Below are positions 1-40,482 of a DNA stretch of 64,000 bases, piece after piece (the first letter of the stretch is position 1; the number at the start of each line of letters is the position of its first letter). Both the position numbers and the translations under genes were made by a program. The DNA lies in contig JACONQ010000014.1 of NCBI GenBank assembly GCA_014281115.1, positions 1,178,001 to 1,242,000 of the forward strand, given 5' to 3'. Under the pieces are notes generated by a model. The model did not search any database, was not told the origin of the DNA, and saw only the letters and a list, made by a program, of their open reading frames with translations. This stretch comes from Laburnicola sp. R22_1 (taxonomy: Eukaryota > Ascomycota > Dothideomycetes > Pleosporales > Didymosphaeriaceae).

Positions 1-2185
1 GACTCCTGCCTAAGCGCTCTACTAAGCCATTCTGCTCTTTAGTGTGTGGAGCTCTAATCTGTAGCTTAATACCTTCTTCCTAATAGTAGTCTCTAGCAGA
101 GTTGTCTGCCAGGCTATATTCTCGCTTATTATTAGCAATAAGCAAGGTAATAGTTGTATTAAATTCTCATTTAATTGTTTAATCTAGACATCTAATAATA
201 GATAGTAGCGTAGGCTTGTCTCGTCTAGGTATCGTGTAGACGAAATAGAACTTTAAGAATAGGTTAAACCTATAGAAGACATATTAATCACCGTTATAGG
301 CTCTTATATTAAGCTTAATTAGGTTAATAGTAATAGTTTTAAAGGCTTAGGTTGCCCCTATCTTATAGCCTATTTAACGCGAGATAATCTAATATGCTTT
401 GCTTTATAGGCATTCTTCGTAGTTAACTATTTAAGGAGCAGTTCTAGTAGCTAGCTATATGCCTATTATGTGACTTAATAGTTAGTCGATTGCATTATTA
501 CTTAGATATCTTATAAGGACATAGAGCTAGAACTTGCTTAGCGATCTTAATTTAGGCAGTAGGGCTAAGTACTATGGCTAATGTTAATGGGTAGCGAATG
601 TTTAAAGCTAAGTAGATTGGGTAGATAGAGAATTAGTTCGATAGACTACTAGCTAGTGACTACCTAGCCTAGTAAGGCTAGCGATGTCTTTAACTTATAA
701 CCCTAATAAGTTAGACTAATATAGAGTGTTTCTACCTAAGTCAAAATGGATATTTAATAATAATAGTTGGGCTAGAGAGACTAGGCTTATAAAGAAGCTT
801 AGTATTAAGGCAACGCGCTTAAGCTTTGTCTTTCTCTATTCTTAAGGCGTTAATAGGAGTATCTCAACTTCTCCCTATGCCTAAATAGCCATCTCTGTGC
901 CTCCTGCAAGGACAACATTGTCTAGCGATGTAGGAGCCTTCTATTAGAACTTAGGAGGATTGTTGCAGATGTGAATATTAGTGGCTGGATCTAGCGTCTA
1001 TAAGTAAAGAAGTGGAAAGTGTTATAGCGTTGGCCTATTATTAAATGCCAATAAGTAGACAGCGTAGGCTTTATAGGAAAGGTTGGCTATAGGTGCATTA
1101 CCTGCGTTAATTTCTATTAAATTAGGTTCTAACCTATAGCTCCCTTAAACCCTACGCTTCTTATAGCGCTAATTCTTTTCCCAAATCTTGTTTAGTATGC
1201 CTTTCGTATCCTTGGCTTCGTATTCAACTATCTTCTTAGCTTTTTTAGGGTTTTTAACGAATCCTCCTCTGCGCTGTGAGGTGTTAATGTACGGACACTA
1301 TCCCCAATAGTGTAGATCTCTACAGAGACATAGCTTTAATAGCTTTAATAGCTTGTTCTAATAAGGTCTCTTTTTATTGTTTTGTCTATATAGAAACTTC
1401 TCTTAATTTAATATAGCTGCAAATGCTTCGCCTTAGATAGTTAATTTTGTTGCGGTCGTACAATAGTAGCGCAGGTATCCTGCTAGTAGTTTAGGTAGTG
1501 TTAGCTAGATAGAGTTGCTATCTAAGGTAGTTAAGATAGTTTCCGCGTTAAATACTATAATAGCGATAGTAGCAGCGTAGCCAGGGTCGATCTGCCTAAT
1601 AGCTTAAATAAGGTCCTTGTGAGGTTAGTAGCTATACATCTCTAGTAGCTTAAGTTATTTAGCCCTATTATAGGCAGCAAGAAAGGTGCTACACTACTCC
1701 TCTAGATTCTCTCTATAAGCATATAGTACTTTGGCAGTGTTATAGTCTTTCTAGACCTAATATTCTTAATTAGCTATTATAGGGCTGTAGAGCTCCTATA
1801 GCATCTTAAGCTAATTGTGGAGGGACTTTTAGTCCTTAATTTAATAGACTAGGTCCTAAGTAATAGTGTTAGCTACGTGCGCTTTAATTTGGCTAATCTT
1901 ATCTTTAGTTTGTTTATATTCCTTAAGCTCCCTATAGTAGAGACTTATTTCCTAATTATACTGCGCTTAAGCTTTAGTAGTAGGTTCTGTCGCTAGCGAT
2001 CCGTCTTCGTTAACTATTTGAAGCTGGGCAGGTTGCTAAGGCTTACTAAGCGTTAATAGGGGTGATAGATCTGGATTAATATATCCCCATACGTCTCTAG
2101 CCTCTACGAGCCTTTTAATAGTATAAATCTATAGTTCCTAGTTGTGTGGACTATAAAGGATAATCGAAGAGCTGGCCTTTAACAT
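1..2185 (-). mobile_element. Degenerate Ty1/copia retrotransposon, gag to integrase, cut by left window edge
   Basis: Read on the minus strand, a gag-like product begins at an ATG at 2185 and shows the copia capsid pattern of W-rich helices ending in VWGYINPDL, followed by long relic frames with many stops. At the extreme left edge (about 1-60, minus strand) the relic reads APHTKEQNGLVERL, which matches the end of the copia integrase core including the third catalytic acidic residue (the E of NGLVE). Gag, protease and most of integrase are therefore covered, and reverse transcriptase lies outside the window. Dense TAA/TAG codons where Trp or Gln would be expected fit RIP. The copia leader is not beside the gag start: a LINE abuts it at 2196. 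The leader appears to lie at 38074-38273 (see the inversion finding). Family assignment is good; the detailed domain borders are not resolved. Confidence 0.75.
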
Positions 2186-4259
2186 GGCAAGATAGTAGTA
2201 GTAGTAGTATTAATTAACGTCCAGGAACCTAGGTTCTAGCCTCCTATGGGGCATGGGGACGCGCCAAGTAGCCATTTGGGGCCAGCTAGATAGTAAAGGC
2301 GATTTATGCTATAAGCTATTGCCGTCTCTTGTAGCGGCTTATAAGAGTCCGCCCCCCTCTATATAGAGGCTAAATCCGTGTCTTTATGCCTATAGGCTAA
2401 GATATTAGGGTGTAGCTATTATACATATAACAATCTAAAGCAGGGGTAGCTTTGGCTGCCCTAAAGCTATATTAAAAAGTGCTAAGACCTTAGCGTAAAA
2501 CTAGTATAGGAAAGGTAAGGATTGTGTAGACAGTAAGGAGAGGTAAGGAGAGTAGGAGAGCATAGGGAAGGTTGCCTCGTGTGGCAAGATGTTAGAATAA
2601 GAGGCACCCCTACTAGGAGCTTAGATAGAGTCGACGCCAGAGGAGCTATCCTAGATTATTATTGCGCCCGCCAGCATCTATAGCTTAGTAGGCAGTCTAT
2701 AGAACCAACATTTATTTATTAGTGTTAGTGGGGTTGGCAAGCTCTAGCAAGAGTTAAAAATCTTTAGGCTTAAAGGTCTTTAAGTATTTAACGCCCTCCT
2801 GTATAGTGCTAGAAGGAAAAGGAAGTTGTTTTAGCTAGTAGCGGAACTTCTAGACCGCTTATAGGCAGTGGACTATGTGGTCTAGCGTAAGGTCTGCCCT
2901 ATAGAAGTATCCCATAACTATGTTATTGTGTTTAAACTTCTTATAGTACTAAGCATAGTGTCTATAGCAGGTGCGTATAGACAGTAGCTTTATAAGTGTT
3001 AGTTATTAGAGGGTAAGCTTCTTTAGCTATTTTATAGGGCGATACTTAAGGTCCTACTATATATACCACCTAGACAGATTTAGTATGTGCTTGCGCTACT
3101 AGTCTATCTCTACACTCCTAGTAAGGGCGCGAATATCTAACTTAAGGCCTAAGACTGTGGGTTTAGTTGCCATACTATATGGAGGTTTAGGGGTTCTTAC
3201 CGCGTTGTCTACTAGCTAGTCTGCCTATTCGTTTCCCTCTATATTACAGTGTCCTAGGGACCACTAGACAATAATATCTAGGTTCTTAATTGTCTCTTAG
3301 CACCTAACAAACGCCCACTATAAGAAGGGGAATAGGTTGCCTCTAATATACTATATAATAGAGGTGCTATCTATGTATATATATATACGTCTAAGCTAGT
3401 AGGCTAGCATATAGAGTGTGTGTAAGAGTCCTCGCCACGTGCCTATAGCTTTAGCATTAAAGACGTGGGACCTAAGGTTAAGGGAGCTATTGCCCTATAG
3501 AGTGAGAGTCTGCCCTTTATATATAGCGTAGCTATATATAATATACTTAACGCCGTTAAGCTATTATTTAGAGCTATTAGAAAAGACAGTAATAGCAGTT
3601 AGTGGGAAAAGGGCCTACTACTCCTTAAAGCGGCGGGCGGCTTTCTTCTTATTTACATAGCCTGTAGGGTTGTTGCGGCTCCTAGGGGAGTAGTAGGGGG
3701 CGCGGAATTCAGGTTGGGGTACTAGGTTAAAGACCTATACTAGTTGTTATACCTTTGTGCGGGCTCTCTATAGAAGGCCTATGCCTTAGCCTCTTCTAAC
3801 TATAGAAAGGTGAGTTCTAGCAGTTAGCGGGTGCTTTTTATTAATTATTAGCAGGTGTGCTACAAAGTAGAACTTGCAGGTTTCTAGGGCTACTACTACT
3901 ACGGGGAGTCTAGCGTCCCTAAAGATAGTGGTGGTAGGTGTAGTTTAGTAGGCCGAAATAATAGCTCTATATACCTACCTAAGGACCTTGTTAAGTGTTT
4001 CTATATGCCAACCTAGTTAGGTGCTTACTTTGGCGCCTTTTGACTAGCGTATAATTCTAGAGGGTTTGGTTCTTCCTCTATACTAGGCCTCCGCTCTATA
4101 TAGAAGTTAGGGGAGGATATAGGAGATTACCGCTTTGCGTAAAGATCCTAGTAGGGGGCTGTGTTTAATTTAAGCGAGGCTACAGATATAGTGGGCAACA
4201 ACCCTTGTCTTTACGGCGCGTATGGCCATATAAGTCTTAAAGGTAAGCTTTTTATTAAA

Positions 4260-4529
4260 CTATACGCCTAGCCAGCGCAGTGCAGGTACCTTACTTATGG
4301 GGAGAATTAGGTAAATAGTAAGGTAATTGTTAACAGCGCAGGGCGGCGCGTAGTCCCTATTCTGTCTTATAAGGTGGATTATTTTAAGCTTGTCTAGTAA
4401 GAAAGCAATCTTATAGTCCGCGCCATATAAGTTAATCTTGCAGACTTGTTTAGTAAGTATTTTAATATTAAGGTTAAGGCTATAGAAGGCGCTATAGAGG
4501 CATATATTGTTAGTATAGCTAAAGCGCAT
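4260..4529 (-). pseudogene. Reverse transcriptase palm fragment of the LINE with lost catalytic aspartates
   Basis: This 89-residue open stretch contains FSYTNNICLYS near its start. LINE reverse transcriptases carry a catalytic Y-A-D-D box in this context (FxYADDxxLYS). Here the box reads Y-T-N-N at about 4506-4517, so both catalytic aspartates have become asparagine. G-to-A changes explain all three replacements. Just upstream on the same strand (about 4550-4610) lies the preceding motif of the fingers/palm (G.L.SPIIYILY). The enzyme cannot be active. The fragment is open only by chance and is not a separate gene. Confidence 0.7.
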
Positions 4530-7500
4530 AGTTGTGTTCTAGAGTAGTAGCTCTGCAAGGTATAATATATAGATAATGGGAGAGAATAGCAAGCCCTATA
4601 AGGTGCCGCAGGCCACTAGGTAACGGCTAGAATAGTGTTGGCTGTAGCGGACAAGAATGTGTCGGTTTATAAGGATATTGCGTGTAAGAACTAAGACCTT
4701 CTAGTGCTAGTCTTAGTCTTTTATATAGTATAGTAGCTAGTTAACTAGCAGCGCGTTAAAAGCTCCTAGTATATCCATAGTTACCATAGTAACGTGTTTG
4801 CCCTCGCTAAAAGCGAGTTCGGCTTTATGGGTAAAGGCTGTAATTAGGTCCATGGCCGACCTTTTTAGGAGGGCCTTCCCGTGCTAGGGGCTTAGGACGC
4901 CGTGCAGCACAGCTAAGTAGGCTATGCGCCGAGCAATTACCCTTTTAAAACCTTTACTAAGGCAGAATAGTATAGCAAGTAGTCTTATAGACTCTAGGAT
5001 TGTGTAGTCTTTCTTACTAAGTTTCTTAATAAAAACAATCTCCTTGTCTGTCTAGGCGGCCAGGTAGTAGTTAAGTAATAGTAGGTCGCGATAGATATCG
5101 CAAACGTACTGTCTAATGTGGTTCTAGCATACTGTAAGCAGCTGGACTATTATGCCATCAGCGCCTAGTAAGGTGCTAGAGACCTTAATCACGCAGCGCT
5201 TTGTCTCTTTAATCGATAGGTACGTGTCCTATGGGATAGTAGGGTGTTCTTATAGGGTGGGCGGTTCTGGTAGATTGTCCTTCGCTATAAATCTGCAGAG
5301 AAGTGCTTATTATAGCATCTTAGTCTTATCTTTGTCTTTAGTTGCCTCTGCGCCTCTAAACACTATTAGTGCCTATGTTTTAGTAGGTTCTAGCTTGTGC
5401 CAATTAATAATACAGAAAAGTTCCTAGTTGCCTTAACCGTTATCTATAGTGTGTTGCTAGTACTCCTTCTTTACCTTACAAACTATTGCTAGGAAAGTAC
5501 GTGTCTTATTAGAGAGGCCCTAGCTAGTGTAGCTATTAAGCGAGTAGAGGTGTGCTTAATAGGCTGTCTTGCAATTGTCTATCTACTAGGGCGCTAAGTG
5601 GCCTATCCCTCTCTTCTTTCTACCTGCTATCTTTAGGGCGTTAGTAAGGACTTCTTCTAAGGCAGCAACGCGCCTATTAACGTGCTCGCAGGTCTGTGGC
5701 CTATCTAAGTAGGGGGCGTCTTTTATTCCGTTAGCAATAGTGTTAACAAATAGCGGTAGCTTCTTTGTAAGAACCCTATATTAAAACTAGTTAAGGGGCT
5801 TCTATTCTCTGCTAGGGATTATAGTAACTAATATATTATAGTCTAAGCTATAGTTTATATCTATTTGTACTGCGGTAGTTATAAAGGGGATATTATAAAA
5901 AGAGAGGTCTATAACATGCCTGGCCCTATAGGTGGGGATTCTAGGTTCGCCTATATAATCCATGCCGCTGTCTATAGCCTATTAGGCCAGCTTAGCTTCG
6001 CCCTATATAGTTATAACACTAGGCTCGAACATATTATATTTAGTGTTAAGATTACCTTCTGCCAGGCACCTATTTAGTAGGGTAAGGCAGATAATATAGT
6101 TAAGTACTAGCGTAGTCTATGGCGCCTAGTAAACGTTAAGTATAGAGATTCTATTTACTTTAATCTACTACAGGTCCCTATTATATAGCGGGGTATAGGG
6201 CGTAATCTTTAGTCTATTGCCCTTACAGGTGAAGATAAGGACCTAGGAGCGTTCTGCCTCCTAGGTCTTCTAGCTATCCCAGCCGTCCACTAGTGGATAA
6301 AGGTTATAGCTAGGGTAGTTCGAAGTCTATATACTAGGCCAGGTAGCTGGCTCTTATATATAAATAATATTAATACCCTCTATAAAAGCGATATTAAGGG
6401 CGGCTGTGTGTGCTAGGCCACTTCTGCTAATATTAGTCTAGTATACTTTTATATTAGGGTCTCTACAAGGGGTGTATCTGCGGCGGTTATTCCTTATTAA
6501 TTAGAGGAGTTGTCTATAGTCATATCCTTTTATAAGGAGGACTATATATAGTCTATATATCTTGCGCTTTATGCTAAGAGTGTAACAAAATTAAGGCTGC
6601 CACTTATAGGCGCGATAAGTCTAACTAGTTAGCTTAAGGCGCGAGCTACTTGTTGTGCCACAAGATTAGGGTAGGGGCTTAAGCGCTGTCCTCTTAGTAG
6701 GTAGGGGCTAGGAACTTATTCCTAGCTCTCTTAGTCTATAGGCTCTTCTTAAGGGGCTTATTAGATAGTGTCTTTAGTAGGAGCAGTGTCCTCTTTATTA
6801 GGTTAAGCGTTGCCCTTAGTAGAAGGGGCGCCTTCTCTGTTAGTGGCGTTGTCTTGTCTTTATATAGTAGGCGCGGGTTGGGGTTATAGGTTGTGTAGCT
6901 AGTTGTAGGCCTTTTGTCTAGTGCGGTAGAGGGTGGCTAGCTTATAGCGGGTAGGTCTTATAATCCTGCCGCTTACTCGCCTGGGCTTTACTAGGCAGGT
7001 TAGATTATTAGTAGTGTATAGACCGCGGCAATTAGGGCACTATAGCTTATAAGCGCAGTTATTACCTATAGGGCCTTTGTGCTCGCTCTATTTTATACTA
7101 TAGTTGCAGTAGTAGGGCGTGTAGGTGCAACGCGCTGCGTTGTAGTATTCCTGGCAACTAGGGTTGTGTTGCTTAATTACGCGTTTCTTAACAATTTCGC
7201 GGGATAAGTCGCTAACACTAAAGAGTTAGAAAGGTGTTACTGGCTTCTTAAAGGACACTATATAGGTAGTGTGCCCATATTAGTTTGGGCTATGCCTAGA
7301 GGGCTAGTAGTTTACTAGGCGAGTTAAGGTCTGTGTAAAAGCCTCTTCTGCGATTATTTCTAGGGTGTATAGGACTTCTTATCCTAACAGCGAGTAGTAG
7401 CTGCTAGGCACCCTAGGGATAGCGTAGTTGGTCTAGTGTGTGGGCAACTCTACGCTATTGCCATTAATAGAGTGGATTATTAGTTCCTTCTTTTCTTATT

Positions 7501-8286
7501 CTATAAGTTGTTGTTGTATAGCCTTAGAGGCTGGCGTAATAGCCCAGCCTATTTAGGTCCTTGTAGCTATAGGAATGTCGCTAATATTAAGTCCTATAGC
7601 GTCGCAGATTGCTTTTTGCACAGCGAAGGCAGAGGTCTGTCTAAGCCTATTAGCTAGATTTAAGATAGTGAGCAAGATCTATAGGTCTGCTGCTTATCTA
7701 GGGGGCTGCTGTCGCTTAACAGCAGCTATGGCCCTTCTGCTGTTAGTTGTTGTGTGCCCGCTATCCCCGTAATAGAAGGCAGATGCTACGCTTACCCATG
7801 TCTTCTAAGGCTGGGCGGCAAGGACGCTGTCACTATCTATAGTGTAGGCTGTGGTTGTCAAGTTGTAGCTTGTCCTTACCAGATTGGGGCGAAGGCTTGG
7901 CGCAGTAGTAGAGTTTTTTAGCGCCTGTATAACGCGGTTGCGGAGGGCGATAGCAGCCGCTAGCTCCTCTAGGCGCTTAAATTTGGCGAGGCAGTGGTCA
8001 ACAGCATTAGCTATTGCCATTACTATCTTTTCCTAGGTCTCTGCCGCCTTGCGGGTGGCTGTAAGGTAGGAGTTAAGGACACTAGCTACAGTTTCTGTGT
8101 TAGCAGGGCGGACAGGCACGCCTCCACTAAAGGAGAGGCGTCTAGAAGGGCGAATATTAGACTGTTAGCGCTTCCTTATAGCGTGCTGGAGGTTATTCTG
8201 TTACGCAGACTTAAGGTCTAGTGGGCGGGTCGCTGTAGAGGTCCCCAGAGGGGGCCTCTAAGGCGTCTCCATTGCTATCATCAAAC

Positions 8287-8304
8287 CACCGCACGCGTGC
8301 GGTG
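8287..8304. repeat. 18-bp perfect palindrome in LINE 5' leader
   Basis: The sequence CACCGCACGCGTGCGGTG is its own reverse complement. It lies about 100 bp inside the LINE 5' end and just upstream of the probable ORF1 start. It is GC-rich and un-mutated in a heavily RIP-affected element. It could be a transcription-factor site in the internal promoter of the LINE or an RNA hairpin in its leader. No other copy of the 5' end is present in the window for comparison. Confidence 0.6.
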
Positions 8305-8406
8305 CCTGAAGATGGCTAGGAGTGGTATTTAGATGAAACTGAGATAATGAGATAGAAAACTAGGCAGTTTTGACCACTTTCTCAAAATTTCAAAAGTTGA
8401 TGATGT

Positions 8407-8422
8407 GAATTTGATTGTCGAG
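8407..8422 (-). repeat. Target-site duplication of LINE A (5' copy)
   Basis: The minus strand reads CTCGACAATCAAATTC here and then changes abruptly to LINE sequence at 8406. The identical 16 bases occur on the plus strand at 40264-40279, directly after the (TAC)n tail of the other LINE. The repeat lies within codons for LDNQI of gene A and is the point where that gene is interrupted. Confidence 0.85.
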
Positions 8423-9223
8423 ATCTCCTGGTGCGCAGATAATGCCTTTCGGTAGCGTTTCGATGTTTTTCTTCCATAGAAGATGCTGTAACATCTGCCT
8501 GACGGGATTCTCTGGTTCAAACATAATAATAAATGCGATTGGTGTGTCGGGTATGCGCGCTCTCTCGTGAGCCTGTAATAGTAGTTGTGCCAAAGTATCG
8601 CAGTTTACCTTCAAGAGCTGAGAGCGATGAGCGAATAGCGTAGGTGACTCGAGAAACTTTATGTCTTCTTCATTTAGATGCGTGGTGTCGATGTGTACCG
8701 TCAATTTAGCATTTGCAGGCAGTTTGTGGGAGTTAAAGGCCCGGTTTGTCAGATGGTCGATAATCTTCCTAGCAAACAAGAAGCGGCGATAAGCAGTGTG
8801 ACGGTATCTTTGTTGGTGAAGAGAGGGAAACCCAAGTAGGAAAAAGAAACCGACAACTCCTTTGTGTTCAAACAGATTTTCGAGTTTCATGTCCCGTGTA
8901 GTTCCGATATCTCTCATCTCCTCTAGCGAATTCTCTCGGTCTTCATATTCCTTCCATATCTTTTCGGCATCGGCTGTCGAGATGGGCTCATTAAAATACT
9001 CTCTGTTGAACTGCTCCTCTTCATGCATGCTCTGAGACCAACCATTCCGGGTGTAATCCCATTTGAATAGAGTGTCGTCGTCTTGGCCTGGATTCCGCTC
9101 CTGGTCGCTGTGGAAACCGATATGTTCATTCATTGAAACATCTTCAAGATCAGCTTTCTGTAGAAGTGGGTTTCCTCCATTCCGCTTATAAAGCTCCTCA
9201 GAGTCGAATAGGTTCGGTGCCAT
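8407..9223 (-). pseudogene. Gene A, 5' half: unknown family, interrupted by LINE
   Basis: The frame starts at ATG 9223 (MAPNLFDSEEL) and is open to the LINE junction, giving 272 residues; a few extra codons of LINE sequence follow before a stop at 8390. There is no signal peptide and no transmembrane segment. The N-terminal third is acidic and the centre contains an FLLGFPSLH motif followed by an alpha/beta-like region ending in a hydrophobic strand (IAFIIMFEP) and CAPGDLDNQ. A paralogue at 42491-43904 has the same order: MVFGLPSLH, then VFIILWPMNP, then CSPGEVDN. The remaining part of this gene, starting LDNQIPEEH, is at 40266-40482. I do not recognise a described domain; function is unknown. 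It seems undamaged up to the insertion, so it was probably a working gene when the LINE landed. Confidence 0.75.
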
Positions 9224-10751
9224 GTCTGCCCGGTGCAAGGAAAATCGAGAAGATTGCAAAGAATGCTCGTTCGCTTGTTGTATGCAGGTTATGCAGAAAA
9301 TATTTGAATGATATTAGTGAGGTATTGTGCATGAAAGTGACGGTAATGTCTGTTGAAGAATACTAACCAAGGTCCAATTTATACTCTGGATCGGTCCATC
9401 TTGCCACGCAGGTAGAGCCGAAGTGTGACGCTGCATCCTAGGCTGTTCGATCGCTATATCGTGACTCACCAGAATATGTTGACTCTTACTCGATGGACAC
9501 ATGCCCTCAGCCATTATCGAAAAGCCCATGCTTACCAGAGCTCGATTTAATTTGACTGTGCATATCGTATACAAGCAAAACTGCCAGGCTACCTGTAAAC
9601 CTAAGAGCCTGCACATATGTATACTTAGGTACGAACCAGAGAAAGGGCAGTTTATATGACTACAGTTCTCCAACTTCAGATACTTTACGACTTGAGTTCC
9701 AGTCATACCCTAGGGGCGAATGACTTTTCCTTCAAGTAACATAAGCTAACCGGTCGCCCGTGTTTCATCATGCACTGACTCCCGTCTGCATAAAACTGTC
9801 GGCTTCAAGTAACACAGACCGCGCAGTCGGTCGTGTCCAACCACGCACTGACTCCCATCTGTACAAACTACCACTAACGCCTGCAGAGATACAGACCAAG
9901 CGCGATCCACTGCGAGAGATGCGCACGACGATCTATCGAAATACAAATCACCTTCAGGACAGGCGCATACTGAGCATGGCCCTAAGGTAGCATCACCAGC
10001 TGGTGAGAGACCCGTACAGGAACTGGCCGCCACCAAGTTCCAAACTCATCAATGTCATATAGCAGCCCCATGGTCCCTGGCGAGGACGTCCGCCGTCAGC
10101 TTCATGCGCGCAACTGCAGACCCCCACTCAATATCCTAGCGCTATTTTGGACACCACAAACCTCGTCATGCCCTGCCCGCGCTCCCAACCGGCAAGGACA
10201 CCCCTTGCACGCATGTGCTGCTGACATACCCACACTCCACACGCCAGACCCCTGAACCTATCCCACTTCCTCCGCCCTCCCCACCCATAAACTGAGGCCA
10301 GCCCAAGCCTTCGACGCAGCACAACCCCCAACCCTCAAAATCCACGATTAGACCAACCCCAGCTTCCCTTCAAAAATCCCTGCAAAGCCTCACTTATCCC
10401 ACAACAGCCATTGCCGCCCCCACAGGACCCAGATTCTTCTCCCGCATAGTATGCTTGGCAATTACCGCTCTATTACTGCCGTCGTAGACACCAATAGCGT
10501 CATACAAACCGCTCCCACGCTTCGATGGTGCGTTGCAGTCCTCGTATGACACCACGACTAGTAGACGACCTCAAGCCATCAGAAACGGAATCTTTGAATG
10601 GCAGCGCGACTGCAAGTCGACGGCACAGTCCCTCACTCCAGACATACATCACATCCCACAAAGTCACCAAAACACCATACCAGAAAACCCACACGCAAAA
10701 ATTTCATATTTCCCAAAGACTATCTCCTTCCACCCCCACCTACCCACCAAC
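9224..10751. other. Intergenic stretch, no convincing gene
   Basis: Only short overlapping open frames are present, with no consistent coding character. It contains a two-copy tandem duplication (9731-9876) and ends in the C-rich 3' flank of sec5. The part nearest 9224 should hold the promoter of gene A. Confidence 0.5.
9731..9876. repeat. Two-copy tandem duplication, period about 73 bp
   Basis: TTCAAGTAAC begins both units (9731 and 9804), and GCACTGACTCCC followed by TCTG recurs at the same distance in each. The units have diverged by substitutions, several of them transitions. No function is apparent. Confidence 0.6.
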
Positions 10752-28292: not shown

Positions 28293-28418
28293 GTGGCGTT
28301 AATTAATCTACCTAGGGGTAGGACAACAAAGGCTTTTATCTTAAATAATATAATTTAAAAAGCAGAGCCCCCTACTTAGTAATTAAAAAGAGTGTAAAAA
28401 AGGTAATTATAAAAAAAG
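28293..28418 (+). mobile_element. SINE-like element, copy 3
   Basis: It begins GTGGCGTTAATTAATCTACC and ends with GGTAATTATAAAAAAA, the mutated equivalent of the GTGATCAC-A(n) tail. No convincing target-site duplication was seen, perhaps because of RIP. Confidence 0.65.
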
Positions 28419-29684: not shown

Positions 29685-30045
29685 ACGACTAAGGAGTTTC
29701 TAATAAAAAATTTATAATAATAGTTGTAAGGGATCACTCAAGGCATCAAAGGTTAAAATTAAGAAGTTAATTTTACTAAGATATCGAGGTGGCGTATAAA
29801 GACTGTTAACAGCTGCCTTATATACCCACACGTAGCCGAGGCGCTAATGCCTAATCGGGTAAGGTTCCGGGGCTCGGCGGAACCTTCCGCCGGGCGCGCC
29901 GCATCTCAGGAATCCCTAAAAAATTTATAATAATAGTAGATATTCCTCCTACTATTATATATATAGAAAAGCGTTTTAAGATATTAATAAAAAGAGGTTA
30001 GCGCGTTATAAACAAGCTAAGTAAGTTTAGTAGACTTAGCGCGCC
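29685..30045. repeat. Right arm of the inverted repeat, split by an insertion
   Basis: The pieces 29685-29722 and 29937-30045 together match the reverse complement of 21186-21335. The left arm has no insertion at the corresponding place, which defines the intervening piece as inserted DNA. Confidence 0.6.
29724..29918. mobile_element. GC-rich insertion with hairpin and about 20-bp flanking repeat
   Basis: It starts TGTAAGGGATCACTCAAGG and ends CTCAGGAATCCCT; AGGGAT and ATCCCT form short inverted ends. It is flanked by direct repeats of about 20 bp (AAAAAATTTATAATAATAGT, near 29705-29723 and 29919-29937). The centre contains a TATA-like stretch (GCGTATAAAG) and the hairpin AAGGTTCC..GGAACCTT in a GC-rich context. 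It is far less mutated than its surroundings, so it is younger or escaped RIP because of its size. It could be a solo LTR or a short non-autonomous element; the class is undecided. Confidence 0.55.
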
Positions 30046-31284
30046 TACTTTAACTAAAAAAAATCTATATATAAAACTATAGATAAGGCTATATTACTAT
30101 ACTATAGTTTAGCGTAGGGAGAAAAGAGGTATAAGACAGCGCTAGCGTTATAACTAGTACAATACTATAACTATTATCTTCTCTACTATTATTCCTAAAG
30201 ATTGCTAGCAATAGCTATAATAATAAGTTTATACTACTTATAAAATATATGCTAGATAGAAGCTTACACACTATAGGTATACTAACGCTCTATTTCTATA
30301 TTAAAGTTAGCTTTAAGAAGACTTCTACTACTTTATTTTCTACTATCTTCCTAGGCCCTAGTGCTAATACTAATACTAATACTAACGCCGCCTAAAAGTA
30401 CGCTCTAAAGATCTATCCGCTTACTAATATTACTAGGTCTATACTAAAATACTATTCTATTTAAGGTATTATTAATAGAAAGCAAAAGGTATATCTTATC
30501 CTATATAAAATAGTTCTAGTATACTAGTAAGGCTGGTAATAAATTAGTAACTATAGGTGTAGTAATAATAGATGTATAAAGTTTCTACTATAGTTCCTTA
30601 TATTGCTACTAGTTAGGAAGACAGCAATAATTTTAAAGAAGGATAAAATTAAGAAAAAGAGAAGAAAAAGTGTTTATTAATAAGTTACTAAGAAAGAAAA
30701 GCGTTATATAAGTATATATTAGATTCTTATAATTATTATAGCGTTAAATAGTAAGCGTGTTATATAAGTGTGCTGTATAAGTAGCGCGCGAATATAGCAC
30801 AATTACTAATAATAGTAATAATAAAATAAGTTAGTATACTATATACGCTTTAAGTAAATTTAATAGATATTAGAGCGCTTATAAATATTAGACAAGTGGG
30901 TAGTTTATAAACTGTCCTTATAAACTATTATTATATTAGTGGAGAAGACTAGTAGTTAATAGTAATATACTATTTAGTCTAGTATACTACTATTAAAATA
31001 TATATAGAATTTATTAAGTATAGTATAATACTAGACTAGATAGTATAATACTATAAAGATAAGTATATATAATTTATTAAAAATAGTACTATACTAGACT
31101 ATATTAATTTTAATAGTAAAAAAGAAGGTATATATAGTAAGCGTATAGAAAAGAAAATACAATAATAGAAAATAATAGAGTTAATAAATTACTTATTATT
31201 CCTATCTAGGTGCGAATAGAAAGCAGAAGATTCTGCAGCGTATAGACCGCAGCGCACAGACATTACGTGACGCGCACGTGATGC

Positions 31285-31824
31285 CTATTGTGCGATAACC
31301 TCAACACCACCACTGTGAGCCTTGCCCGTACGGTGTACGGACACTATGTGAATATAATCTAACCGACTAATTCCAAATAAACGCCGCTCCGCCAAGCTCC
31401 TTACACAATCCTCTACCACCTTCCTGCACCCGCAATACCCTCCAGCACAGGCACAAAAAAAGCGCCCCAAAAGCCCTCGCCACCCTCGTCCATGCCATAC
31501 TCTAAGATATTCCCATCCAATCTCGCTAGCTGAAATATGCCCTGCACCGTCTTCGTCGTCAGCAGCGGTCCGCTCGTTCAGCTTGACGATGCTACTACCC
31601 GCGAGCGACACGTTCTGCCCGGGTGCGATATCATCTTCACCCCCTTTGCGCCGCTTGGGAGGACTTGCACGGCGCATGTGTTGTAGATGGTCCGACTCGG
31701 AGTCGCTATCGCGCCGCCGTTTGGGACGTTGCTGGGGGGAAGCGGGCAGCTCGAGCTGCAGCCAGGCGCGGACACGGGCAAATTTATTGTCGGTTGTCGG
31801 TGAGGGAGGCAGGGAGGAAGACAT
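31285..31824 (-). CDS. Hypothetical basic protein, 3' end replaced by repeat DNA
   Basis: The likely start is ATG 31824 (MSSSLPPSPTTDN); an open frame continues upstream to 32025 without support. The product would be about 179 residues, with a bipartite-like basic segment (RPKRRRDSDSESD and PPKRRKGGEDD) suggesting nuclear location, then a Trp/Gly/Cys-rich part (WHGRGWRGLLGRFFCACAGG). The last codons, from about 31306 down, lie in sequence that also occurs inside the RIP block (29495-29570), so the natural 3' end has probably been lost or an intron joins a part now gone. No domain is recognised. Confidence 0.4.
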   Translation of the reverse strand: MSSSLPPSPTTDNKFARVRAWLQLELPASPQQRPKRRRDSDSESDHLQHMRRASPPKRRKGGEDDIAPGQNVSLAGSSIVKLNERTAADDEDGAGHISASEIGWEYLRVWHGRGWRGLLGRFFCACAGGYCGCRKVVEDCVRSLAERRLFGISRLDYIHIVSVHRTGKAHSGGVEVIAQ

Positions 31825-32281
31825 GTTGCGGGAGTCGGAGGCACGAGAGCGATGAGGTGGAGGGGCTGCATGCGCGGCACCAGCGGGGCGTCGTTGGTGT
31901 TGGTGCCAGGTGAGCTGCGGCTGCGGTTGGCGAGGCGACGCCAATGTTTCCACCCGAAGAGCCCGCGTCGGCTGCCCCTCGTTCAGTTCCACCCGCCTCA
32001 TGGCCGAAACCGCGAGCACCTGCATGCAACATTAGCTGCATGTGCTAAACGCGAATAGGATAGTAATCGCAAGTATGTATTCAGTCTGAGTTTTCTACGA
32101 CTATCGAAGACTCTCCCGCTGGACGCCAATGCAAGAATGGGTATCATTCCAAGGAATCTCTCTGCCAAAACGCCGCTCCTACCCGTGTACACACACGCAT
32201 TAACCCAGAATCCTCCATGCATTCTTCCCGCGCCCTACGATATACATACATGCTCAGCGCGCCGTAGAGCATTCGAAATAG

Positions 32282-32900
32282 CTACTCTTCAGTGTCGAGC
32301 AGATCGTCATCAAGCACCTCGAAGCCCATATTCTTGTAGAATCGCACCGCCTCTTCTTGCGTCATGGTGTGGCCGTTGTGCACTTTGTCCATGAACTTCT
32401 CTTCACTCTTCCAGGATCCATCTGGGCCGGAGCGCGCACGCTCTGCTTCCAAGTGCTTTCGCTTCAAGTGCTGGAGCGGCGATTCGTCTGAAGCGGGGCC
32501 GTGGCTGGACGGGGCAGGAGACGAAGAAACCGCTCGATCGCTGTCGTTCATGTCTAACGCTTTACGCTCAGCACCGGGCTTTGGGAAGTACTTGGCACGT
32601 TCGCTAGGAGTGAATCGACGTCCCGTACCATCATCCCCAACGAGTAGTCAGTGATCTTCAGGACCGTGGAGGAATTTTTCCATCTTTGGGAAGATGGCCC
32701 AAGCGAAACGTGCTAGCAGGAAGGCTGGGTGTATGGTCGGGATTTCTTGGAGCGGGATCCTATGCCACACACAGTGCACCTCGGGATCCGAATGGGTAGC
32801 ATGAACAGCGAATTGGAGCGTGTCAGCATTGTCCTTAGACGCGGGCGCACATCATTATGTCGTATGGGACCTGGACCGTCGTTTCGATCGTCCATCTCGG
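32282..32900 (-). pseudogene. Broken gene, unknown family
   Basis: Minus-strand coding character is clear in ADTLQFAVHATHSDPEVH, IHPAFLLARFAWAIFPKMEK, GRRFTPSERAKYFPKPG and the acidic end FYKNMGFEVLDDDLLDTEE. These stretches share one frame, but a TGA interrupts it just after the GPEDH stretch (about 32652) and a frame change separates them from an upstream stretch VPYDIMMCARV (about 32850-32880). ARFAWAIFP followed by an acidic tail recalls the C-terminal part of some fungal HNH-type proteins; that is a weak guess. The first 270 bases (32282-32551) remain open with their own ATG (MNDSDRAV), so a short product is possible. Confidence 0.45.
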
Positions 32901-33249
32901 TTGCCATGTTGGCGGCGTACAGCCGAGTGTGCAGGGGTGACGTTGGTGTGGTGGGGAGCGTGGGGTGCAGATCAGGGTTAGGGTGGGCGATGGTACACTA
33001 GCACCACGGACACTAGTAGCCGCTAGCGTCTTGCGTGCGCGTTATCGATAACGTGGGGCGTTGCGAGCACCAGCTGCCAACTCTAGTATTATTGCAGAGG
33101 GGAGACCCCTCATCTCTCGCGCCATCACCAAAACCGCCATGAGCCATGAGCGAAATCGATGTGCCGACTGGGAGAGACCCTAAGCCGACCCCGATGACTC
33201 TCCCTCCCTGCCCCTCTCTCTTTAGTGGACCGGGCGCCCCGTACGCTCC

Positions 33250-33840
33250 TTAGATAGTAAGGAAGGAGAAGAAAACAGCGAAGGAGGAGAAGAAAGCAGC
33301 GAAGGGGGAGAAGAAAGCAGCGAAGGAGGAGAAGAAAGCAGTAAAGGGGGAGAAGAAAGCAGTAAAGGGGGAGAAGAAAGCAGCGAAGGCGCGGGAGAAG
33401 GAGGAAAAGAAGAACAAATAGAGAGAAGAGGATAAGAAAGGCATGCTTCTTGGGGTTAGCGTAATGAGTAGCTTGGTGGGAGATGTCGGAGAGGCTTTGA
33501 GAAAGGACTTGAAGCGCTCAGGGGCTTCAATCTCATAGCTAGGGGAGCGGAGTATCCCTCCTGGACAAATCCAGACGCTAAGAAGGGTGTTTTTACAGTC
33601 GACCCTGTGGACGCACAACCTCCTAGATACTAAAGTGGATAATTAGGTGTAAAAGCTAGGGGCGTAGGGCGCGGGTGTGTATACGAGTACGCTGACACAT
33701 GCGGCGTGGCGACGTATGTGATGGGGCTAAGGGATCAAACGCATCTAAAGCCGGAGGCGGTGAGGTATTTTATTGGGGAGGCGAGGAAGGTGAAGAAGAA
33801 GGCTTTTGATGTGATCGAGGGGGTGGATGCTAGTGAGTGA
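33250..33840 (+). pseudogene. Lys-rich repeat protein remnant
   Basis: The plus strand reads a run of KEEKKAAKGEKKAAK repeats and then, after a TAG, EEDKKGMLLGVSVMSSLVGD and, farther on, VMGLRDQTHLKPEAVRYF and KKKAFDVIEG, with stops between. Coding character is real but no uninterrupted frame spans it. The family was not recognised. The minus-strand Phe-rich open frame over the same bases (33250-33618) is a shadow of the purine-rich repeat. Confidence 0.4.
33258..33393 (+). repeat. 21-bp coding minisatellite, about six to seven units
   Basis: Purine-rich units of GAAGGAGGAGAAGAAAGCAGC with G/A and C/T variants repeat in frame, each adding seven residues (KEEKKAA type). The units differ by few bases. 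Confidence 0.7.
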
Positions 33841-34004
33841 GTGATGTTTGTGAGTGTAGAGTGGATAAGTGCTGACTAAGAGTGATAGGTTATTATTTAA
33901 TGATTGGGCAGGCGGAGTAGTTGGCGGGGGAGGCGGTATGAGGGGAATGGGAGTTGGGACGGTAGAGTTGTTGTTGATCTAACGGATTTGCGCGGCGTAA
34001 CTAA

Positions 34005-34741
34005 TCAAGAGCACCTTACAAACCCCCCCGCCCCAACCATAGCGTTCATATACACCAGCTGAACTGCGCCGCCACTCAAACCCTTCGCCTCCCGTTTAGT
34101 CTTGCCCAAGCCAACCGGTTGCTTCTGTCCCAGGCAGCCTGATATCGGAGAGAACCCACGCGCGAGATTATCTTGAGTCTCCAACATTACATTGTGTATT
34201 TCCAAAGTTTAGCATATGTCGTCAGTCAGGGGTTTCCGGATTCAACGTACGCACAGGCAGGCGCTCTCCAGCCTCTCCGTTCTCTATAGTCGCTACTACA
34301 ATCGCGCTGCGCGAATGCCGCCCATTCCGAGATCGCATGTAACGACTGGCGTCCGCGCCAATTTCGCCGTCTCACTTCAAATTGCCCTTCTCCTACCTCC
34401 CGGCTCCCGCGACGTGCCCAAAGCTCACATCCCTCGAGATGACGAAAGCCCAGATCCCACCCTCGCCCGCCGGCAAGCAAGAAAGTCCAAGCACGAAAGT
34501 CCAGAGACAGACGAGGTCTTCCAACTGTTTACAAATGCAGTGTCGCAGAGGACCGACACCCCGGGATGGCTGCGCGTAGCCACCTTCATACATACACCAC
34601 CAACCTCGGTGCCTCCCGCTTCACACCCTGGGCAGCCTCGTTGGTTGACCCGTGCGACATCCGACACTGACATCGGCTTCTGAGGTCTTCGACCGGGCAG
34701 CGGCACACCTCGCTTGCGGCGATGAATCAGACGCCATTGAC
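34005..34741. other. No supported gene
   Basis: Overlapping open frames on both strands (for example 34216-34683 plus and 34425-34820 minus) exist, but neither has recognisable coding character. This is part of the decayed region. Confidence 0.35.
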
Positions 34742-34995
34742 TCATGCGCGCCCAACGATACGACGTGAAGTGGCGGGTCGGCCTCGCACGGGGCAGGTCG
34801 CGCGTATCGAGAGCAGACACGATGTTGAGACGACCATTGGGCGGATGAAGAGATGAGTAAGCAGCTGCTTTCTGGAGAAGAGGAGCGCGACGATCAGGAG
34901 CCAGAGGAAGATAGCGACCGGAAGGTTGATGACGACATATATGTGGGCAATGATTCCTTGACCACCCCCGCCGTGCTTGGATTCAGCAGAGAAAG
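34742..34995 (-). pseudogene. Membrane-protein gene remnant
   Basis: The minus strand is open for about 80 codons, ending in TGA at 34742-34744. It reads KHGGGGQGIIAHIYVVINLP, then VAIFLWLLIVALLFSRKQLL, a strong transmembrane helix with a basic flank, and then FIRPMVV. There is no ATG or clear splice partner upstream. It is probably an exon of a dead integral membrane protein gene. Confidence 0.35.
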
Positions 34996-34999
34996 CCGA

Positions 35000-37050
35000 G
35001 TGTCAGGTGTACCCTTCCCCAAGTTCCCCTTTGGGGGTTACCCCTAAACTTTACTGACATCCCCCCTAGACGACCCTAGACCGTAGAAACCGTAACACCC
35101 GCTCAGCGTAACCGATATTCCGGTCAGCAAGTACCTAGCATACGCGCTGGAAACCAGAAGGAGAGTGCAAGACGAGGCGGTGGACGGGGAAGTCGACGTA
35201 GCGCACGAAGTGGAAGCATAGGTTCTGGCCTTTCGAGCGCCAGCTCTTTCCCTCCTTGAATACTACGACACTTGGCCAGCGGTACATGCTCCTGATATGT
35301 ACCCCCAGCCAAATACGTCTTGCTGGCACATCAACCTTCCTGTACCTCTAGCCTGGATTTCCGAAGCCGTTTTGGAACGGGAATCGAAGATATGTCGGAA
35401 GTGCCCCAGCTCACCTTGTCTTCTTTTGTATTCGTCCCGAATTTCCTTGTTGTCTTTCTGTGGTGTTCCACGTTGACTTTCATGGCATTACTGTACCGCA
35501 GCTCCATGGCTAGGGCCACCCAGCCAGGGGAACTTCCTAGGGAGCGCCAGGGTCGTCACTCCTGAAGAGCCAAGAGCGTTAACACGGAGGAATACCAAGA
35601 CAGGGTTGTCACCTGCGGTGGGAGGTTGCGCATGATGGCAAGAAGATCTCGAAGAAGACCTGGTGCCTCGAACGCATGTCAGACAACAGACCGAGGTTTC
35701 AGAGGTTAGAAGTCTGGTGAGTGAAGCTCAACCACTTCCCGCCGTACACGTGCGCGAGTCGATAGGTCCCAGGCCCTAGTAGGGGGCAAGGGCAAGTTTG
35801 CTTTTCTTTTTTCGACGGAAACCTGCCGACTCCCCTCCTCCGCTCGGTTGTGGTGACGGTAGCCACTCTCACACTCGTTGTCCATACACGGTCAGCAAAT
35901 AGCGCTCGCGCTTCCGTGCAGGCGTTGACGGTTTGATGCTTGATCTCAAGACAACGTCTGCGGAGACAATCTTCGGAAGCGGCTCGAGCAGAGGGAAGTG
36001 GCAACAAGCGCTAGGGATATACGCCGTCGCTGTGCATGCGGTTATTCAGTGTTGGGGGGTCACCAGTAAACTACTAACAACCCCCTAGGCCAACCCCTCC
36101 AACCAATCCTGGTAAGTGAAGTGAAGTGGGAAGCTCCAACGCCCCTAGGCGCGATGCAGGTGAGACGCTAACTGTACCGTGCGAAGGCGGATCCCACTAG
36201 GTACAGCGGTCGACATCCGCAAGCCGATTTGTTCGATACTGCCAGATTGAGTGGTGGTGGATAGGCAGCGCGCACCTCCCACCACGTCCAACAGTGTCCG
36301 TAGATTCACTTGGCACGTCCGGCAATGTATCGGTATCGCGAAGACCTGGCGGGGCGTACCCAATGTTTGATTTTTTCTTTTTGGGCGAGAGATGGATGAG
36401 TCATGGTTTGAACCATGGTTCAAGTGCCAGAAGCCTCTGCGCGATTAGTCCGATGATAGCATGTGACCGCACCTGTGAAAGTGCCTGGCCGGATATCGCA
36501 GGGCAAAACGTTGGAAAGAGAGGATTTTGCGTTCCCCAGGATAGGTATGGCAGAGGCTGAATGAATGGCAAAATGAATTTGAAAGTTCGTCCTGCAGTTG
36601 TATATTCGAGATGCCTGAAGCCCCTTTATGGTTGGAAGTTACGTCCATGTAGCCGTACTTTTGCTATGTCGGAAGCCATGTCCCATGTGATTGAGAGTTA
36701 GCGTTCGCGCATGCGCAGCCTTTCCATTCACCTACGCGTCCACTGCAACATTGTCGCGCATCCACAAATCGAATCGCAACACCATCGAAGTTTCGTCCAC
36801 CAATCGCATCCAGTGGACCGCCTCCATTCGCAATTTTCCCGTTCCTTGGTTCAGAGCAGCTCTGCGCCATGGTTGATACTCTTTATCTATGCTTGCGTGC
36901 TACCTGACTAAGTGCGTTTTTAGAACCCAATCATAGATAAAAGTCCATGCCGTCGAAAAAGTCCACATCCGCTTCGCGTCCGCACCGCCCGAGTTTCGTT
37001 GCTACCCTCCACCGCCCGAGTTCTCCTTCACGTCCCCCTATTACGCCGCG
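35000..37050. other. Decayed or non-coding accessory region
   Basis: Several short frames look partly coding, chiefly minus 35135-35329 (GQNLCFHFVRYVDFPVHRLV), but none forms a gene model. The stretch 36650-37050 precedes the plus-strand gene at 37051 and may hold its promoter. Confidence 0.4.
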
Positions 37051-38073
37051 ATGGCAACTGACAACGTCCCACCACCCCTCTTCGTACCCGATACGCGCTT
37101 CGAGCCGTACAGAATAGGCACTGGAAGGCTATTAAGCCTACCTGTAGAATCCCGTGTCGTGGAGCAACCAGCAGGCTTGCTGAATGTTCGCGAGTTCCTT
37201 CGATCGATCAGAGATGTCGCCACTGCGTTGGCAGTAGAGAAATGCGAGGTTCCGCAGTTTGTTAGAAGATATCATAGTGGCGAAGACCAGAGCGCCGCAC
37301 CGATTACACTGATGGTTTTCGCGGATATTTCGGACAAACCGTCCACAACAAGGAGAACGCTGCTGAGGACCATAAACCGACACTGCTGGGAGGCCGGCCT
37401 GGTGGATATTGAAATCGAGATCATGGATTTCGACCATTATTGGCGAATGCGAGACGTGCCCCTAGGGCCAAACGACATAGAAGTTATCACGGAATGGCAC
37501 CACACGTCACAAAAGATTATGGAATACCTAGACGAAAACAGACGCAGGTGGACGACCATGGATCTGATCCGTAGGGGGACGAGTGCCTCCCCAGAAGAAT
37601 GCCCCGTTACCCTCATAATTGGCACTGCCGAATCCGAAGAGGGTTTCTGGTGGGAAAGTGGGATTCGCGAGTTAGAAAACATCACCGGCGTTAAAGTAGA
37701 AATCATGCACCGCAATACATGGGAGCTAAATTGTCCAGTGACGAAAGAGGCCTACAAAGACCCACCAGTCATGGGTGCATCTTTGGGCGAGGAAGATATT
37801 CGCGGCGGAGGAACCCTAGGTGGCTTCTTGAAGCTAAAGCGAAGAGGAGAGACCATGACGAAAATGTATGGGCTAACGAACCACCACGTCGCGGTTACAG
37901 GGGAAAGAGCAGACAGAAAAACAGCGCTGAATCTCTCTAACGAAAAGAAACACCACAAACCATGGATGGTATCCCCATCCGACGATGACCATCGTCAGTA
38001 TCTGAACGAAATGTGTAAGCAGCCTAGAGCTATGTCACATGACGACATTAGTCTCATAAGTCAGCTCGCCTAC
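37051..38073 (+). pseudogene. Protease-like (TNHHV motif) gene, 3' end lost to a transposon
   Basis: The frame opens at ATG 37051 (MATDNVPPPLFVPDTR) and stays strongly coding to about 38040-38073. The N-terminal 230 residues are a mixed alpha/beta region. The end carries GGGTLGGFLKLKR and YGLTNHHVAVTG, resembling the start of a trypsin-like domain in which the His of NHHV would be catalytic. In chymotrypsin-fold enzymes Asp and Ser follow later, and that portion is absent here. Beyond 38073 the frame continues to 38247 through low-complexity Tyr/Thr/Ile-rich sequence that I take for retrotransposon leader. The natural gene is therefore truncated. There is no signal peptide. The start is well placed after a C-rich leader. 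Confidence 0.65.
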
Positions 38074-38258
38074 TATATACGAGCCTCTGATCACTCCATG
38101 TACGATACACAGGCATATACACATCTAAACACAGATACTTCTACAATATACACTTTCTACACATACTACCCAATTGCTTACAGTTATAAGCCCGGCCTAA
38201 TCCGCACTTATATACATACATTAACTCCCTACCTACCTATCTATTAATCGAGCCTACT
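38074..38258 (+). mobile_element. Probable 5' leader or LTR end of the copia element
   Basis: A pyrimidine-rich, low-complexity stretch (TATACACATCTAAACACAG, CTACCTACCTATCTATTAAT) replaces the coding sequence of the 37051 gene. It ends in the 15-base sequence CTATCTTGCCATGTT (38259-38273), which contains the gag ATG of the copia element at the left edge of the window. It is thus best explained as that element's upstream part, displaced by the inversion. The LTR start could not be fixed. Confidence 0.45.
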
Positions 38259-38273
38259 CTATCTTGCCATGTT
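38259..38273 (+). repeat. Target-site duplication of LINE B (5' copy)
   Basis: CTATCTTGCCATGTT immediately precedes LINE sequence that starts CGCTCGGATCAAACACGG at 38274. The same 15 bases occur on the minus strand at 2195-2181, directly after the (TAC)n tail of the left LINE. Alignment of the two LINEs starts exactly at CGCT, so this is flanking DNA. Confidence 0.8.
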
Positions 38274-40265
38274 CGCTCGGATCAAACACGGCCCCCCACC
38301 GGGGTCTTTGCGCAAAGCGGTGATCTCCTGCGTCCTCCCCCGACTCCTGTACGGAGCGGAGGCCTGGTACGGAGGAAGAACCAAACCCTCTAGAATCATG
38401 CGCCAGTCAAAAGGCGCCGAAGTGAGCACCCGACTGGGTTGGCACATAGAAACACTCGACAAGGTCCTTAGGCAGGCATGCAGAGCCGTTGTTCCGGCCT
38501 ACTAGACCACACCCACCACCGCTATCTTTAGGGACGCTGGACTCCCCTTAGCAGTAGTAGCTCTAGAAACCTGCAAGTTCCGCTTCGCAGCACACCTGCT
38601 AACGATTAATAAAAAGCACCCGCTAACTGCCAGGACTCACCTTCCTACAGTTAGAAGAGGCCGAGGCGCAGGCCTCCCACAGAGAGCCCGCACGAAGGTA
38701 TAACAACTAGCACAGGTCTTCGACCCAGTACCCCGACCCGAATTCCGCGCCCCCCACTACTCCCCTGGGAGCCGCGACGACCCCACAGGCCATATAAATA
38801 AGAAGGAAGCCGCCCGCCGCTTTAAGGAGTGGTGGGCCCTTCTCCCACCAACTGCTATCACTGTCTTCTCTAACAGCTCTGAACAATGGCTTGACAGCGT
38901 TAAGCACGTCATATACAGCTACGCTATATACAAAGGACAGACTCTCACCCTACAGGGCAACAGCTCCCTCAACCCCAGGTCCCACGTCTTTAATACCAAA
39001 GCTGTAGGCGCGTAGCGAGGACTCTCACACACGCTCCGCACGCCAGCCTACCAGCTCAGACGCATATACATGTGCATAGATAGCACCTCTATTATATAGT
39101 ACATCAGAGGCAACCCGTCCCCCTCCTCGCAGTAGGCGTTCGTTAGGTGCCAAGAGACAATTAAGAACCTGGACATTACTATCCAGTGGTCCCTAGGACA
39201 CTGCAATATAGAGGGAAACAAACAGGCAGACTAGCTAGCAGACAACGTAGCAAGGACCCCTAAACCTCCACACAGCATAGCAACTAAACCTACAGCCTTA
39301 GGCCTTAAGTTAGACGTTCGCGCCCTTACTAGGAGCGCAGAAATAGACTGGTGGCGCAAGCACACACCAAATCTATCTAGGTGGTACATGCAGTAGGACC
39401 TTAAGTATCGCCCTACAAAACAGCTAAAGGAGCTCACCCTCTAATAACTAACGCTTGCAAAGCTACTATTTATGCGCACCCGCTATAGACACTACGCTTA
39501 GTACTATAAGAAGTTTAAATATAACAACGCAGTTATAGAATGCTCCTATAGGGCAGACCTTGCGCTAGACTATATAGTCTACTGCCCACGAGCGGTCTAG
39601 AAGTTCCGCTACTGGCCAAAACAACCCCCTCTCCCTTCTAGCACCATATAGGAGGGCGTTGAATACTTAAAGACCCTTAAGCCTAAAGATTTTCAACTCT
39701 TGCTAGAGCTTGCCAACCCTACTAACACTAACAAATAAATGTTAGTTCTATGGACTGCCTACTAAGCTACAGATGCTGGCGGGCGCGACAATAACCTGGG
39801 ATAGCTCCTCTGGCGTCGACTCTGTCTGAGCTCCCAGCAGGGGTGCCTCTTATCCTAATATCTTGCCACACGAGGCAACCTCCCCTACGCTCTCCTACTC
39901 TCCTTACCTCTCCTTACTATCTATACGATCCTTACCTTTCCTATACTAGTTTTACGCTAAGGTCTTGGCACTTTTTAATATAGCTTTGGGGCAGCCGAAG
40001 CTGCCCCTGCTTTGGATTGTTATATGTATAATAGCTACACCCCGACATCTCAGCCTATAGGCATGAAGACACGGATTCAGCCCCCGCACGGAGGGGGGCG
40101 GACTCTTACGAGCCGCTGCAAGAGACGGCAATAGCTTATAGCATGAATCGCCTTTACCATCTGGCTGGCCCCAGATGGCTACTCGGCGCGTCCCCATGCC
40201 CCATGGGAGGCTAGAACCTAGGTTCCTGGACGTTAATCAATACTACTACTACTACTACTACTACT
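38274..40265 (+). mobile_element. 5'-truncated Tad1-like LINE
   Basis: It covers the last 2 kb of the LINE: the thumb region of reverse transcriptase (GSLRKAVISCVLPRLLYGAE), RNase H around 39090-39260 (WSLGHCNIEGNKQAD), a Cys/His-containing end region and the 3' untranslated part, ending in about nine TAC units at 40239-40265. Mutation is lighter than in the copy at 2196-8406, especially in the first 250 bases, but stops (for example within QAD-LAD at about 39231) show it is inactive. The 5' junction is a typical truncation of target-primed reverse transcription. Confidence 0.85.
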
Positions 40266-40279
40266 CGACAATCAAATTC
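40264..40279 (+). repeat. Target-site duplication of LINE A (3' copy)
   Basis: CTCGACAATCAAATTC follows the (TAC)n tail and is identical to the minus strand of 8422-8407. The first two bases may also belong to the tail. Confidence 0.85.
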
Positions 40280-40482
40280 CAGAGGAACATCAAAACGTCA
40301 AGAAGTATTTCGCCGGTGATAGAACCAGTAACTTGGTAGACAAAATGCTCCGAGAGCAATACACAGGGCAGGATCTTGGACTTGACGATATCCAAGAAAA
40401 CGGGAAGAGTGTTTTCGGTCCCACGCGCTTGTATCTGCGCTCTGACTTCTACACCAGGGAGAGGTTACCTGAAAACACCTAG
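40266..40482 (+). pseudogene. Gene A, 3' half
   Basis: After the LINE tail the plus strand reads in frame DNQIPEEHQNVKKYFAGDRT and on to a TAG at 40480-40482. It corresponds to the paralogue's KKQLSKIYAGDRTSDRVDDF region and contains the same AGDRTS motif. It begins exactly where the 5' half at 8407-9223 stops and shares the 16-base duplication with it. Together they would encode about 344 residues. It has no start codon of its own. Confidence 0.8.

Follow-up and report, generated by a model that had tools for sequence, protein, structure and literature searches.

Exchanged target-site duplications and in-genome empty sites point to a 29.9-kb inversion between two LINEs of Laburnicola sp. R22_1

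Two long interspersed nuclear elements (LINEs) of one family lie in opposite orientation at the ends of a 29.9-kb segment in the genome of the fungus Laburnicola sp. R22_1, and the sequences around them indicate, with very little doubt, that this segment has been inverted between them. The window analysed is the whole 64,000-nucleotide stretch of contig JACONQ010000014.1 (positions 1,178,001 to 1,242,000; assembly GCA_014281115.1). The sequence comparisons cover the one 63.9-Mb genome to which it belongs, and coordinates are those of the window unless the prefix G000:C is given. Inversion of the segment between the LINEs had been claimed in a preliminary description of the window, and the claim is now borne out by empty sites elsewhere in the genome together with, outside the window, the other end of a copia element and a second split gene. 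Sec5 and the phospholipase gene, which the description had placed within the inverted segment, are both present there. In what follows, LINE A denotes the element inserted in gene A and LINE B the element inserted in the copia. The LINEs, their target duplications and the segment between them are arranged as follows.

2181-2195, minus strand: LINE B target duplication (15 bp), which now borders the left LINE at its 3' end (identified by exact match and by copia copies)
2196-8406, minus strand: left LINE (6,211 bp) with a (CTA)n tail, heavily mutated by repeat-induced point mutation (RIP) in the part examined (LINE position 2740 on)
8407-8422, minus strand: LINE A target duplication (16 bp), bordering the left LINE at its 5' end (exact match and genome count)
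8407-38273, strand not applicable: inverted segment of 29,867 bp; it contains Sec5, the first part of gene C, a PLA2_B phospholipase and a gene resembling dual-specificity phosphatases
38259-38273, plus strand: LINE B target duplication (15 bp), bordering the right LINE at its 5' end (exact match and copia copies)
38274-40263, plus strand: right LINE, 5'-truncated, with a (CTA)n tail, lightly RIP-mutated
40264-40279, plus strand: LINE A target duplication (16 bp), which now borders the right LINE at its 3' end (exact match and genome count)

The duplications at the two LINEs are exchanged, and an exact-match search finds both of them swapped between the left and right LINE at the places that had been claimed. 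The 16-mer CTCGACAATCAAATTC stands at 8407-8422 (minus) and 40264-40279 (plus), and the 15-mer CTATCTTGCCATGTT at 2181-2195 (minus) and 38259-38273 (plus). The right LINE lies where it had been located, with its end at 40263 instead of 40265, because the right copy of the 16-mer begins at 40264, a shift of two bases. The preliminary description had also held that its reading would suffer if these matches were common in the genome. The 16-mer is not, as it has a whole-genome count of two, both at the LINE junctions of the window, and the same 16-mer taken backwards as a control occurs nowhere across the 63.9 Mb. The 15-mer is common, being part of the copia family and found at at least 40 places among the matches listed in each of two flank searches. 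Since it belongs to a many-copy family, the match of the 15-mer by itself would prove little, and its weight comes from the uninterrupted copia copies.

The copia element is divided between the two sides of the inverted segment, with one part running out of the window to the left.

1-2180, minus strand: copia, the part downstream of the start codon, which leaves the window on the left and reaches a 3' long terminal repeat (LTR) ending at G000:C6:1171694
38009-38013, plus strand: AAATG, the 5-bp target duplication of the copia, with its partner directly beyond the 3' LTR on C6
38014-38182, plus strand: copia 5' LTR (TGTAAGC...GCTTACA)
38183-38273, plus strand: copia leader up to the start-codon region

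The element has the TG...CA LTR bounds and the 5-bp target duplication of the Ty1/copia type, and a Pol_BBD domain was found in one of the two family members scanned. Its left part aligns over the full 2,195 bases to all 19 copies compared, at 90-92% identity. Two flank queries, one leading up to the right LINE from the left and one lying past the left LINE, were each used to list 40 places, the window included (40 of 107 and 40 of 52 candidates scored). Among the 39 listed non-window copies of the left flank, 31 adjoin a listed right flank and all 31 overlap it by exactly 15 bases, with extension by 1-3 bases where an alignment stopped before the query end; the other eight have no counterpart among the right-flank matches listed. 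One right-flank match (C8:1078419-1079338) was dropped, as it starts at query base 81, short of the junction. The 15-bp target is uninterrupted in all 32 distinct other copia places (38 loci read), and in each of them (G/A)AGCCTACT leads straight into the 15 bases, which show C/T and G/A variants, and these into AAAGGC. The earlier placement of LINE B at the copia start codon agrees with these uninterrupted sites. In the window, the copia sides of the LINE B target are 36 kb apart and face in opposite directions, and the outer ends of the copia, TGTAAGC and GCTTACA (the inverse of each other), each beside AAATG, are 44 kb apart. LTR starts are about 5.47 kb apart in other copies of the element. 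The other LTR start on C6 is at 1171862 (minus), about 3.1 kb beyond its expected place, and because of this greater distance the left part of the copia probably carries a further insert outside the window, between G000:C6:1171862 and 1178001.

The copia itself interrupts a second gene, gene C, which the preliminary description had overlooked. The two parts of this gene now face opposite ways at a distance of 44 kb.

37051-38013, plus strand: first 321 codons of gene C, cut by the copia LTR (identified by the in-frame continuation beyond the 3' LTR and by an uninterrupted paralog on C4)

The 5' LTR begins within the open frame that starts at 37051. Past the AAATG on C6 the frame of gene C resumes (HNNIGITLDSLNNPKRMRERLDILSSVEG...), with 91% DNA identity over 283 bases to the C4 paralog. 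The first part of gene C matches the same paralog at 87% over residues 1-320, with the match ending at C4:2565277, and the match of the continuation starts at C4:2565268, from its sixth base, so that by coordinates the two parts adjoin without a gap. Going by these alignments, reversing the proposed inversion would return the parts of gene C to either side of the copia. The C4 paralog (G000:C4:2565277-2566242) is a 626-residue open frame, and gene C is a member of a small family. The first part of gene C had no outside homolog at E <= 0.001 among 2,416 candidates from the protein collection.

At the other insertion, the halves of gene A adjoin the two LINEs and a tandem paralog follows.

8407-9223, minus strand: gene A, first half, 272 codons without a stop (matches the open reading frame at 42774-43904)
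40264-40482, plus strand: gene A, second half, 72 codons and a stop, the first five codons inside the duplication
42774-43904, plus strand: tandem paralog of gene A, uninterrupted across the LINE A target

The open reading frame at 42774-43904 is matched over its residues 36-198 by residues 127-272 of the first half, and over its residues 210-284 by residues 1-63 of the second half. Both matches extend right up to the LINE, one to the final residue ahead of it and the other from the very first residue behind it. The paralog lies just past the second half of gene A in the same orientation and, genome-wide, each half of gene A matched only itself and this frame. LINE A had been described as inserted in gene A, and the two halves do match consecutive stretches of one uninterrupted frame. 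With an identity of 28-32% across the aligned parts the paralog is a distant one, and the evidence from gene A is therefore weaker than that from the copia. The paralog has 11 extra residues between the two matches, part of a small internal repeat; this repeat, PGEVDNKM-PGELDNKM-PGELDNEV, sits where the LINE entered gene A. No outside homolog was found for the first half of gene A at E <= 0.001 among 241 candidates from the protein collection, and neither this half nor the first part of gene C has a Pfam domain at E <= 0.1.

The segment is flanked on each side by an element of the same family, the two facing opposite ways, and the uninverted order yields uninterrupted empty sites for the copia, for gene C against its C4 paralog and for gene A against its neighbouring paralog. 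Once the inversion is reversed, the duplications on the two sides of each LINE match, so the present order is the derived one. The inversion itself cut no intact gene, because its breaks fall inside the LINEs.

The behaviour of the family elsewhere in the genome provides the background for these junctions. Its members have the hallmarks of LINEs, namely reverse transcriptase (an RVT_1 domain in member L046), 5' truncation, (CTA)n tails and target duplications of variable length, about 12-16 bp; no LTRs were found on the copies whose two ends were read. In a control set, matching duplications of about 12-15 bases enclose six of the seven other insertions or arrays with both ends readable. Four of these (L048, L049, L065 and L068) were picked up by script and two (L047 and an array on C22) were read by eye, the latter two having filler bases at the 5' junction; a pair on C1 (L059/L060) was set aside, as its outer 5' end was unread. 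The C22 array (G000:C22:3101173-3105625; L064, L066 and L067) is a head-to-tail trio of 5'-truncated copies, each with a (CTA)n tail. The trio is enclosed by one 14-bp target duplication, TTGCGCGAGAGGTT, and may be a single insertion with repeated copying, or the result of later amplification. On C1 (G000:C1:4871902-4877345), a truncated second LINE starts right after the (CTA)n tail of the first, head to tail as in the C22 array. Member L046 (G000:C15:44879-46954 and beyond) has its own last 107 bases duplicated within a few bases, followed by a piece of a more distant LINE.

The two LINEs of the window align without gaps over 1,981 bases, of which 1,725 are identical (87%), and differ by 255 transitions and one transversion. 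At 225 of the 255 transitions the left copy has T or A and, judged by the base in the right copy, 125 of these are in CA and 70 in CG context, in keeping with RIP. Across 26 copies, with the 80% group (L069-L072) and the window duplicates L043 and L063 left out, the left LINE has the mutated state at 314 of 587 variable C/T and G/A columns (53%) and the right LINE at 122 of 587 (21%). By window along the element, with the 80% group and the partial copies L064-L068 left out, the left copy keeps an even level (42-59% per window) from LINE position 2740 onwards to its end, and the right copy stays below it in all six shared windows. RIP is also light in several other short copies (L047-L049, L065 and L068, as in 38274-40263), and ranges from light to heavy in copies reaching farther upstream. 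RIP in this genome may depend on length.

Crossing-over between the facing LINEs, as the preliminary description had proposed, is the simplest cause of the inversion and probably the actual one; the case would then be a retrotransposon recombination-mediated inversion, by ectopic recombination. Several observations weigh against crossing-over. The description had suggested looking for a switch of diagnostic variants within the part shared by the LINEs, and the check gave none: the family is almost without such variants, as comparisons within the 87-95% group show 0-8 transversions in stretches of at most 1,992 bases and so provide no markers for chimerism. No crossover point is visible from diagnostic variants or from the RIP level in any shared window. 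At discordant RIP-type sites, 222 are left-derived and 30 right-derived, and the majority never changes; the best change point moves the left-derived share only from 0.99 to 0.83 (reached by 2 of 1000 permutations). Furthermore, the control insertion L057 has no matching duplications, which means that unmatched ends are not unique to the window pair. The 15-mer at the 3' flank of L057 has no second exact copy in the genome that would mark a swapped partner. This copy (G000:C14, LINE 3' end near 1196943) may mark another rearrangement or a deletion. The change point is detectable because mutated sites are missing from the first and the last 200 bases of the right copy, and it fits a tapering at the ends of that copy better than it fits a swap. 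Mutated sites are likewise sparse near the 3' end in several other lightly mutated copies. An exchange after heavy RIP should leave a step in both LINEs, and for this reason the inversion probably preceded most of the RIP, or else would have accompanied the insertions.

This last possibility corresponds to a different origin of the same scar, in which two LINE RNAs were reverse transcribed almost simultaneously at sites A and B and the strands were joined crosswise. The inversion and both insertions would then be one event and each LINE would copy a single RNA without any chimera. Such a crossed double insertion predicts the same exchanged duplications, as well as the absence of a crossover switch and the placing of all RIP after the inversion, which fits the observations; RIP after a crossing-over accounts equally well for the missing switch, and no sequence feature was found that favours the crossed insertion over crossing-over. 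It calls for two insertions at the same time, at sites 30 kb from each other and with their ends swapped, which is rare on general grounds, and we consider it improbable. Because the crossover point is not seen, the choice of crossing-over is one that we infer. Zumalave et al. (bioRxiv, 2024) reportedly describe synchronous L1 retrotransposition and chromosomal crossover in human tumours, and such events would be expected to leave a scar like the one in Laburnicola. That the Laburnicola scar is a germline, non-mammalian counterpart, in which two simultaneous target-primed reverse transcriptions exchanged their upstream ends, is quite improbable. An assembler that crossed between the two LINEs on a chromosome that is really uninverted would produce the same picture, and inverted repeat copies are a classic place for misassembly. 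The copies are just 87% alike, their longest shared run is 39 bases and none reaches 50, and a misjoin should give a RIP step inside each LINE, unlike the even level of the left copy and the lower level of the right in all six shared windows; an assembly error is accordingly very unlikely. Two independent breaks rejoined without LINE homology, with the duplications arising by chance or through later insertion, are already contradicted by the exchanged duplications and the uninterrupted copia sites. Such breaks would also have to fall exactly at the LINE edges with complete 16- and 15-base duplications, the 16-mer being without another copy in the genome, and this explanation is scarcely credible.

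Should crossing-over be the cause, the left LINE would consist of the 5' part of LINE A and the 3' end of LINE B, and the right LINE of the 5' part of LINE B and the 3' end of LINE A. The course of events began with insertion of the copia in gene C, as its target duplication and the C4 paralog show. By the duplications and empty sites, a 5'-truncated LINE B inserted at the copia start codon and a longer LINE A of the same family in gene A, about 30 kb away and in opposite orientation, the proposal allowing either order for the two. A reciprocal crossover between the 3' ends of the LINEs would then have inverted the 29.9 kb, swapped the 3' duplications and carried along one half of gene A together with the first part of gene C, and most RIP-type mutation of the left LINE would have followed. 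The last base of the 15-bp target offers a further point of order. It is T in both window copies, and among the 32 copia places it is C in 16 and T in 16; beside A this base is a RIP target, and at 38273 the next base is the C of the LINE. Because the T at 38273 is followed by this C, it probably predated LINE B. The likely order is insertion of the copia in gene C, then some RIP (unless the source copy already bore the T), then LINEs B and A, the inversion, and most RIP of the left LINE.

Comparable inversions have been described in animals. Between human and chimpanzee, retrotransposon recombination-mediated inversions involve L1 and Alu elements, and they share with the Laburnicola case retrotransposons that span the breakpoints, mismatched duplications, and an ancestral order given by matching duplications (PMC2603318). 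They differ in that the Laburnicola LINEs are RIP-mutated and without visible chimerism, and in that an outgroup provides the ancestral order there, whereas copies and paralogs in the same genome provide it here (PMC2603318). The Galileo inversion 2z3 of Drosophila buzzatii has opposite-facing copies and exchanged target-site duplications in common with Laburnicola, and is attributed to ectopic recombination (PMC2775673). Galileo differs in being a transposon with 7-bp duplications and copies reported as chimeric, and uninverted chromosomes were sequenced (PMC2775673). The Laburnicola inversion is well supported as a further case of a known kind of rearrangement, demonstrable at three nested levels (copia, gene C and gene A).

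The ancestral order of this inversion can be read from one genome, because the breaks lie inside nested many-copy repeats and beside genes with paralogs. RIP-type mutation can in addition seal the order of events, as the even level of the left LINE, which also speaks against misassembly, dates most of the mutation in that copy to the time after the exchange. For Laburnicola sp. R22_1, the inversion records a real change of gene order around Sec5 and the phospholipase gene, one in which intact genes were spared.

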